A stretch of DNA of 64,000 bases, taken from NCBI RefSeq assembly GCF_041647995.1, contig NZ_JARRIB010000001.1, positions 62,001 through 126,000 on the forward strand, given 5' to 3'. Source of the DNA: Pyrococcus kukulkanii (GTDB lineage: Archaea; Methanobacteriota_B; Thermococci; Thermococcales; Thermococcaceae). Below are positions 22,396 through 63,976 of the stretch, one piece after another. Each line of letters starts with the position of its first letter. The stretch's first letter is position 1. Position numbers and translations under genes: made by a program. The notes below the pieces were generated by a model. The model saw nothing but the letters and a program-made list of their open reading frames with translations, did not search any database and was not told where the DNA came from.

Positions 22396-22404
22396 TTTTT
22401 AAAT
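22396..22404 (+). promoter_or_regulatory. TATA element upstream of the structured leader
   Basis: TTTTTAAAT-type TATA sequence with a purine-rich stretch (AAACTAAGG) upstream. It predicts a start near 22428, two bases before the first strong stem of the leader, which supports transcription of that stretch. Confidence 0.5.
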
Positions 22405-22429
22405 TAACACTGAAGAAATTTAAAATGGT

Positions 22430-22583
22430 CGGAACCCAGGAGATGAACCGAAACCGGCAACGGGAGTAGGTAATCCTGGCGTTCCGTTGGGGCGATGGCG
22501 CCCGCCCGGGGCTTCGAGCCCGAACCGCCTCCCGTCGGGAGGCTGATGGCGCCTGTTCTGAAAGCTTTACGGGAGGCGAGAGT
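22430..22583 (+). ncRNA. GC-rich structured leader or non-coding RNA, possible cis-regulatory switch
   Basis: This 154-base stretch is far richer in G and C than its surroundings. Stem 1 joins CGGAACCCAGGA (22430-22441) with TCCTGGCGTTCCG (22474-22486). Further local hairpins are GGGCGATGGCGCCC (22490-22503), a GCTTCGAGC hairpin (22507-22522) and GCCTCCCGTCGGGAGGC (22527-22543). The 5' arms of the last two can instead pair over distance: CGCCTCCCGT (22526-22535) with ACGGGAGGCG (22569-22578), which holds the ribosome binding site, and GCTTCGAGCCC (22511-22521) with GGGCTCGAAGC (22586-22596), which starts at the G of the start codon. A nine-base repeat GATGGCGCC occurs at 22494 and 22545. It may belong to the high-GC RNA (hgc) class known in Pyrococcus; I cannot match it to a named family. 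Confidence 0.7.
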
Positions 22584-23438
22584 ATGGGCTCGAAGCTAGG
22601 GGAGTTTATTAACTTAGAAAAGGTGCTCGAATATGTTGAGAGGAGAAGGCACGATGACGGAGGGTACTGCTTCGTATCCCAACTAGCCGATACAAACATA
22701 AATGACACGTACTATGCCGTAAAGATCTACACCCTATTAGGAATAGAAGTTCCAAAGAAGGAGAAGACAATAGAGTTCCTCTATAACTCAGCTCAAATGC
22801 AGACAGCAACCGTTGGAGTTGCAATGGCCATCGAGGCCCTAGCAATCCTAGGGGCCAAGGATTTAGCCAGGGAAAAACTGGAACTGCTGTTTAAAAAGTA
22901 CAATCCAGTAAAAGGAAAATTCGCGGTTGGATTAGGAGGAAGCGAAGAGTTTGGAACGGCAACACCACTTGAAGCAACCTACTGGGCCTCCAGAGCTATG
23001 GAATCCGTAGGTTACAGACCATCCCCAGAGATGAAGGAGAGAATGATAGAATTCATAATGCAATACAAAATTAGAGATGGTTTCGGTGTAGAGCGTCCAA
23101 CGACAACGATGACTTACCAGGCATTATACTCACTTAACTTCCTGGGGCAGAGAATTGATACTGTGCATTTTGAGCTCTGCGAAGTCTGCGGGGACAGGGG
23201 AGGTTTCACAGAAGTTCCCAACTCTCTGCCCCCGTACATAGAGCCAACGTTCTACGCATTAAGAGGACTACAGATGCTCGGAAAGAGAGCCACGTGCATA
23301 GAAAGGCACATCAAGTTCATAAAGGCTCTGCAAAACCCAAATGGAGGATTCAGGAGAAGTTATGAGCTAGGAATTTCAAACTTCCAGAACACGTACAGGG
23401 CACTTGCAAGCTTAGATGTCCTTGTAAGGTGGTTATGA
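22584..23438 (+). CDS. Prenyltransferase / terpene-cyclase fold (alpha-alpha barrel) protein
   Basis: A 284-residue protein with repeated helical units of the prenyltransferase beta-subunit type: DDGGYCFVSQ near residue 22, DTYYAVKIYTLLGI, RDGFGVERPTTTMTYQALYSLNFLG, GDRGGFTEVPNSLPPYIEPTFYALRGL and NPNGGFRRSYELG. A CEVCGDRGG motif is present, but the complete Asp-Cys-His zinc set of protein prenyltransferases cannot be assigned from reading, so enzymatic activity is uncertain. The ATG has GGGAGG seven bases upstream. That site lies in the structured leader. Function is unknown in archaea as far as I know. Confidence 0.8.
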   Translation: MGSKLGEFINLEKVLEYVERRRHDDGGYCFVSQLADTNINDTYYAVKIYTLLGIEVPKKEKTIEFLYNSAQMQTATVGVAMAIEALAILGAKDLAREKLELLFKKYNPVKGKFAVGLGGSEEFGTATPLEATYWASRAMESVGYRPSPEMKERMIEFIMQYKIRDGFGVERPTTTMTYQALYSLNFLGQRIDTVHFELCEVCGDRGGFTEVPNSLPPYIEPTFYALRGLQMLGKRATCIERHIKFIKALQNPNGGFRRSYELGISNFQNTYRALASLDVLVRWL

Positions 23439-23749
23439 TGGAGATTTGGGTATCTGAAGAGGATGTAGAGTTGATAAGAGCCAACAAGGAGAAGATAGAA
23501 CAAGTTCTTAGGTCAAAAGATAAACTCGGGAGGCTCCTTCTTTCCCTCAAATTTAAATTTCTTAGAGAACGGAGGTCTGCCTTAGAGGATAGGCTAAACA
23601 AAGTTTCCGAAGAGTATGAAAGACTCACAAGATTCTATATGCAAGCAGAAAGGGACAAGGTAAAAATGATGGAACTAAGGCTTAAGCTCCACATGGAGAA
23701 TGAAAAGTTAAGGAGGCAACTAAATGAAAGTCGTATTCAAAGCAGGTAG
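23438..23749 (+). CDS. Small coiled-coil protein, uncharacterised
   Basis: A roughly 103-residue protein starting MEIWVSEEDVELIRANK. It is strongly helical and charged with heptad-like leucine spacing throughout residues 20-100, so a coiled coil is likely. The start overlaps the upstream stop codon as TGATG, with GGTGG just before; an earlier in-frame ATG at 23435 is also possible. It forms a likely operon with the genes on both sides. No function can be given. Confidence 0.75.
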   Translation: MEIWVSEEDVELIRANKEKIEQVLRSKDKLGRLLLSLKFKFLRERRSALEDRLNKVSEEYERLTRFYMQAERDKVKMMELRLKLHMENEKLRRQLNESRIQSR

Positions 23750-24142
23750 GTGGAAGAAGGTCTCTATAGACGTTCCGAAAAAATCCTGAAGATGATAGAG
23801 GAAAGTGAGTTCAAGCTAATTGAGGTAGTAAAAGCTATATGCAATGGAGAACCTGAAAATAAACTCTCAAATGATAATTTTGGAAAGATAGAAAGATTAG
23901 AGAAAGAACTCTTCGAATTAGAAGGTAAATGGTCCTCAATTCGATTCAAAGCCTATCAACTGGCCTTAGATAATAAGAACTTAGCGATTCAACTCTCGGC
24001 CATGATAGCCGAAAATGCAAGGCTTAGGAAAATGCTTGGATTAAAGGAAGGAGAGTATCGAGAAGCTAAAGAACTTATAAAGAGGTACCTAGTATTCACT
24101 GGGACGAAGAATGGTTCTAGCGGTAAAAGTTCCCAGGACTGA
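23724..24142 (+). CDS. Coiled-coil protein with apparent frameshift at an A6 tract
   Basis: A strong ribosome site (AAGGAGG, seven bases before ATG 23724) starts a frame reading MKVVFKAGRWKKVSIDVPKK that stops after 21 codons at 23787-23789. The +1-related frame continues openly to 24142 as KILKMIEESEFKLIEVVK and so on, ending in a helical, coiled-coil region. Adding one A to the A6 run at 23778-23783 would join the two parts as VPKK-ILKMIEE without loss. Either there is a homopolymer indel (error or mutation) or slippage on the A-run is used. If read alone, the second frame would start at a GTG at 23750 with no ribosome site. Function unknown. Confidence 0.6.
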
Positions 24143-26129: not shown

Positions 26130-26190
26130 CACCTCAGCCTACCGGTGTGCTCATCACCCCCTCAGATGAGGGGAAGGTTCATCATCTAAT
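26130..26190 (-). ncRNA. C/D box sRNA overlapping the fen leader
   Basis: On the minus strand the order is box C ATGATGA (26179-26185), a 13-base guide (26166-26178), box D' CTGA (26162-26165), five Gs, box C' TGATGA (26151-26156), a 13-base guide ACACCGG-containing (26138-26150) and box D CTGA (26134-26137). Spacings are exactly those of archaeal dual-guide 2'-O-methylation sRNAs. Box D directly touches the ribosome binding site of fen, so RNA processing and fen translation may compete. Targets were not identified. Confidence 0.85.
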
Positions 26191-54280: not shown

Positions 54281-54338
54281 ACCAATGATGAGCCTCCATC
54301 CCCACTGAGATGTGATGAGTGCACATCAGGCTGAGATA
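54281..54338 (+). ncRNA. C/D box sRNA
   Basis: Box C ATGATGA (54285-54291), guide of 13 bases (54292-54304), box D' CTGA (54305-54308), spacer, box C' GTGATGA (54312-54318), guide of 12 bases (54319-54330), box D CTGA (54331-54334). All boxes and spacings fit an archaeal dual-guide 2'-O-methylation sRNA. Predicted methylated positions are opposite the fifth base upstream of D and D'. I could not name the rRNA or tRNA targets. Confidence 0.85.
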
Positions 54339-63889: not shown

Positions 63890-63976
63890 TGGCGCCGGGG
63901 CGGGGATTTGAACCCCGGTGGGCAAACGCCCACGGGCTCTCCAGGCCCGCGCCTTCCCTGGCTAGGCTACCCCGGC
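63890..63976 (-). tRNA. tRNA-Ser (GGA), CCA encoded
   Basis: On the minus strand a class II tRNA of 87 bases. Acceptor GCCGGGG/CCCCGGC with discriminator G, anticodon stem CGGGC/GCCCG enclosing CTGGAGA (anticodon GGA), a long variable arm GTGGGCG-TTT-GCCCAC-like, and T loop TTCAAAT. The G73 discriminator and long variable arm fit serine. Convergent with tfb. Confidence 0.95.

Follow-up and report, generated by a model that had tools for sequence, protein, structure and literature searches.

A fluoride riboswitch, probably a translational ON switch, before a prenyltransferase-fold gene of Pyrococcus kukulkanii, with an omega-RNA-like hairpin upstream

The window, that is, the whole stretch of 64,000 nucleotides of Pyrococcus kukulkanii DNA analyzed here, carries a gene for a protein of the prenyltransferase fold, preceded by a long structured leader and followed by two small ORFs. 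The features that matter to the argument are these:

22396-22403, + strand: TATA-like box TTTTTAAA, a predicted promoter, about 34 nt before the upstream hairpin
22430-22486, + strand: genus-specific hairpin with a TnpB/OrfB omega RNA core (CCGAAACCGGCAACGGGAGTAGG); found by a covariance model from transposon copies, E 4.7e-7
22482-22562, + strand: fluoride riboswitch aptamer (crcB motif), Rfam RF01734
22490-22507, + strand: aptamer P1 hairpin (22490-22494 with 22503-22507); 99% of alignment cells paired
22497-22502, + strand: pseudoknot 5' strand, pairing with 22548-22553; 100% of cells paired
22509-22521, + strand: hairpin between P1 and P3, GGGCT-TCG-AGCCC (GGGCTTCGAGCCC); 22511-22521 is the anti-start strand
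22527-22543, + strand: aptamer P3 (GCCTCCC/GGGAGGC); 98.7% of cells paired, with a compensatory C-G to U-A change
22548-22553, + strand: pseudoknot 3' strand, partner of 22497-22502
22569-22578, + strand: ribosome site region ACGGGAGGCG, pairing with 22526-22535 in the OFF fold
22584-22598, + strand: ATG and codons 2-5; in the OFF fold, 22586-22596 is the partner of 22511-22521
22584-23438, + strand: prenyltransferase-fold (alpha-alpha toroid) gene, 284 aa; PF00432, E 1.4e-15
23438-24142, + strand: two small ORFs (103 and 130 aa), which accompany the gene across the order

The start at 22584 is right: MGSKL and the ribosome site are conserved in about 80 orthologues, and the start codon does not lie downstream of 22596. 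The predicted structure of the 284-aa protein has an AlphaFold pLDDT of 90.9; its best PDB matches are beta chains of RabGGTase, and also of farnesyltransferase, with TM-scores up to about 0.7. The alpha-alpha toroid fold is common to all of these, but the archaeal protein is shorter and only 15-20% identical to the beta subunits. The zinc ligands D, C and H may not be conserved, a by-eye comparison of motifs suggesting Y, E and Q instead. Among the genomes searched, the full-length family is confined to Thermococcales; a search of the phylum returned no full-length relative beyond the order, just weak toroid matches. By its position, the gene is presumed to be the orthologue of T. kodakarensis TK0513. 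In two genomes (G080, L191; G076, L080) the gene is decayed or split; in G080 no riboswitch was found, and crcB is still there.

The leader segment 22482-22562 matches Rfam RF01734 with 42.5 bits, above the cut-off of 34 (E 2e-8 in a search of the window), and RF01734 is the one family above cut-off in the leader. A search of the P. kukulkanii genome found this single copy. Other Rfam matches in the window, at 26131-26189 (-), 54281-54336 (+) and 63893-63976 (-), are the C/D box RNAs snoPyro_CD and sR7, and a tRNA. Judged by its sequence, the segment is a fluoride riboswitch; the RNA class and this kind of locus are both already known. Its fold covaries: in 79 aligned leaders 98.9% of cells are paired and seven pairs have changed on both sides, a result that none of 500 shuffles reaches. 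P1, P3 and the pseudoknot are all backed in this way, P1 by a compensatory C-G to U-A change in two sequences and the pseudoknot by six sequences in which both sides have changed, from U-A to C-G. The ligand expected of the P. kukulkanii leader is fluoride, which it would bind; the isoprenoid or temperature signal suggested by the sequence-only reading gives way to it.

The riboswitch is present in 88 of 94 Thermococcales genomes, nearly always directly 5' of the prenyltransferase-fold gene, and copies from T. kodakarensis and P. abyssi have been published (PMC4247193); the idea that such a switch is rarely described in the order does not hold. In the passage of PMC8241225 that cites Speed 2018, the T. 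kodakarensis riboswitch is fluoride-responsive and presumed to be translational. The window's riboswitch shares with both copies the aptamer core, the pseudoknot, P1 and P3, and a position 5' of the same gene family. Its genus differs from known fluoride riboswitches in a longer P3, an extra 5' hairpin, and a crcB gene outside the gene run. The inserted hairpin complementary to the start, common to most Thermococcales, also sets it apart from the known fluoride riboswitch.

In most species the locus runs riboswitch, prenyltransferase-fold gene, DUF6062, two small ORFs, crcB and DUF190. In other genera crcB is usually 3' of the riboswitch in one gene run, so the association with a fluoride exporter is found there; the T. 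kodakarensis crcB RNA is transcribed 5' of TK0513, a gene next to crcB, and not 5' of crcB itself (PMC4247193). In the genus of the window crcB sits elsewhere, outside the riboswitch gene run. In P. kukulkanii itself crcB and DUF190 survive as a fused 64-aa remnant on another contig (L050 1842-2036 (-), G000:C2 near 91664); in close relatives (L052) both are intact. Fluoride control of crcB in P. kukulkanii was rejected on account of this truncated remnant.

Some genomes (L060, L062, L077, L105 and L127) have a second fluoride riboswitch, 5' of a hydrogenase-like operon encoding NuoH, antiporter and Complex I 49-kDa proteins; a 2010 paper connected the crcB motif with formate hydrogen lyase (PMC2864571). 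Neither the inserted hairpin nor the start motif occurs in riboswitch copies 5' of another operon. One species of the genus (G011; L190, 1070000-1074000) has lost the 5' part of the riboswitch, and GATGGCGCCTATTCT alone is left; the gene is kept, the start motif persists as a relic, and crcB has no match.

Two strands of the leader have two possible partners each. Locally, they form P3 (22527-22543) and the inserted hairpin (22509-22521, within 22507-22522). Alternatively, 22526-22535, the 5' strand of P3, pairs over 10 bp with 22569-22578, taking in the ribosome site GGGAGG at 22571-22576; and 22511-22521 pairs over 11 bp with 22586-22596, a stretch that begins at the G of ATG and reaches codon 5. 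The sequence-only reading had placed these stems and long-range pairings correctly, and both alternative folds are conserved across Thermococcales. The MFE fold of 22420-22610 (-94.7 kcal/mol, z = -4.4; none of 200 shuffles as stable) includes the long-range helix and the upstream stem. With G-U pairs allowed, the longest helix between the aptamer and the ribosome site or start is 13 bp, a length reached by 9 of 5000 dinucleotide shuffles of the aptamer (about 0.2%). A fold incompatible with the aptamer can thus mask the ribosome site or the start, the mark of a translational ON riboswitch.

Across 78 distinct leaders, 96.2% of cells keep the OFF pairing, which spans 11 bp at the start and 5 bp at the ribosome site; for the CCGCC/GGCGG part at the ribosome site the figure is 95%, with one compensatory change (L102). 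The covariation of these pairs, with one compensatory cell, is no more than that of shuffles. The condition that the sequence-only reading had set for its own refutation, a long-range pairing without covariation, formally holds, but this null is no refutation, since OFF strands that hardly vary give covariation nothing to test. Covariation as proof of the long-range helix was dropped on the same ground.

The coding sequence is more informative. Codons 2-4 (GGC TCG AAG) have the lowest synonymous variability of the gene, ranks 1 to 3 of 184 columns, with GGC in 82 of 82 sequences, AAG in 78 of 78 and TCG in 79 of 83; these codons are constrained at the level of RNA. An inserted hairpin complementary to the start region over at least 10 bp accompanies 73 of 78 loci with the start GGGCTCGRAGC and none of the seven in which the start has changed (Fisher p 1.6e-7, ignoring relatedness). 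On the tree there are five changes of the start and eight of the hairpin, and the start was never lost with the hairpin kept; such independent events are not numerous enough to be tested formally. In five loci the start sequence persists although the complementary hairpin has been lost, so the anti-start helix is not indispensable. Codon conservation and the joint loss of hairpin and start support a translational ON switch; as far as checked, this codon-level and co-loss evidence for sequestration of the start codon is new, as is the omega-RNA-like hairpin found in the genus.

The reading that we prefer, and hold to be very probable, makes the leader a fluoride riboswitch that works as an ON switch of translation, in which the P3 5' strand and the inserted hairpin mask the ribosome site and the start until fluoride arrives. 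That is, without fluoride these strands would pair with the ribosome site and the start codon, and the prenyltransferase-fold gene would be silent; fluoride would stabilize the pseudoknotted aptamer; the aptamer would hold the strands in P3 and the local hairpin; and the ribosome site would be freed. For P. kukulkanii, we infer both the direction of the switch and its action on translation. The translational switch of the sequence-only reading is thereby well supported, with its sensor moved to 22482-22562.

A second perspective would make the riboswitch mainly transcriptional: the RNA would stop after the aptamer, as an 86-nt crcB RNA, unless fluoride were bound, and pairing at the start would be secondary. 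Such an 86-nt RNA has been reported in growing T. kodakarensis cells (PMC4247193), and predicted terminators often overlap crcB motifs generally (PMC2864571). However, the window has no poly-U tract between aptamer and start codon; the competing strands include the ribosome site and the start codon, with codons 2-4 conserved at synonymous sites; and the secondary literature, in the passage of PMC8241225 concerned, presumes translation. This account seems improbable.

The energetics bear on how a translational ON switch could work. With pseudoknot and ligand left uncounted, the OFF fold is predicted at -67 kcal/mol against -48 for the local fold at 37 C, and at -14 against -7 at 90 C, where the parameters are extrapolated. 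The OFF fold is so much the more stable that switching must rest on high temperature, on the uncounted pseudoknot and ligand, or on folding during transcription. The gap of about 7 kcal/mol at growth temperature would be within reach of ligand binding and the pseudoknot together.

The hairpin at 22430-22486 is a feature of the genus: each of its eight genomes with the riboswitch has the hairpin, which is missing from all other riboswitch loci examined. The 12-pair stem of the hairpin is real: it folds alike in six of six distinct genus sequences, although the outer arms differ in sequence (MAFFT misaligned the arms of two leader groups, which were checked by folding each sequence). Relatives within the genus have the same TATA-like box at a similar distance 5' of the hairpin; in other genera the box is mostly 27-29 nt before the aptamer itself. 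With the box 5' of it, the hairpin should belong to the 5' leader.

The hairpin core, with up to three mismatches, recurs in 40 of 94 genomes, in up to 13 copies per genome (a reversed control pattern gave none); every record with the exact core bore Thermococcales, Thermococci or Thermococcus in its title. Copies inspected look like solo or complete OrfB elements, and one (L177) is directly 3' of a stretch with OrfB_IS605 and Cas12f1-like_TNB domains (tnpB). A further copy of omega-RNA type lies in the P. kukulkanii genome at G000:C1:573090-573117 (L160), with no evident complete tnpB adjoining. A covariance model, R1, built only from 17 transposon copies, picks up each of the eight leaders (E 4.7e-7 to 0.02) and has no other match at E up to 1 in 90 sources, other riboswitch loci included; its RNAalifold structure has six pairs only, unlike the single-sequence fold, so that R1 rests mainly on sequence. 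The leader hairpin shares with TnpB/OrfB (IS200/IS605) omega RNAs the core ACC-GAAA-CCG-GYAA-CGG-GAGUA-GGU, nearly identical over 23 nt. It differs from them in a replaced outer stem, in lacking an adjoining tnpB and the right-end sequence, and in being fixed at one locus in the genus. As 22430-22486 has neither tnpB nor the element right end (GGAGGAGGTCAG), the hairpin is omega-RNA-like, not an omega RNA.

The simplest reading of this likeness is descent from an omega-RNA element; convergence on a shared RNA module is possible. In P. abyssi the P1 hairpin of the OrfB-related repeat RNAs sRk48 and sRk52 is highly conserved, and a different loop of these RNAs binds L7Ae (PMC3124441). They are probably of the same kind as TnpB omega RNAs. 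At present, the leader hairpin may serve as a structured 5' cap or a protein-binding site. That the genus domesticated it as a 5' module for regulation, to which L7Ae or a TnpB-family protein would bind and so give the leader two inputs, is a speculative extension with perhaps an outside chance of being right.

The upstream stem had been proposed as the sensing domain, a role that Rfam assigns to the aptamer downstream; as a known riboswitch it was rejected, having no Rfam match up to E 10. Its invariant loop core, kept throughout the genus between compensated outer arms, might still suit a sensor of a second ligand, but that lack of a match, the absence of the stem from all other genera though the switch is conserved there, and a core explained by kinship to TnpB omega RNAs make this a very unlikely role. 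Least credible is a released aptamer RNA acting in trans on the start region of the mRNA, for, although the T. kodakarensis 86-nt RNA exists (PMC4247193) and 11 bases of the anti-start strand can pair with the start region, pairing in cis inside one transcript should be kinetically far likelier.

A translational ON switch of this design offers an order-wide, concrete model for how an archaeal fluoride riboswitch would silence translation, and each strand of the model is open to mutation on its own. The model also singles out an uncharacterized, conserved prenyltransferase-fold protein as the product of the leading gene in the response to fluoride, and that gene is kept even where crcB has been lost. 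In the genus of P. kukulkanii, what appears to be a transposon guide-RNA hairpin has become fixed in a riboswitch leader, a possible case of omega RNA reuse in gene regulation.
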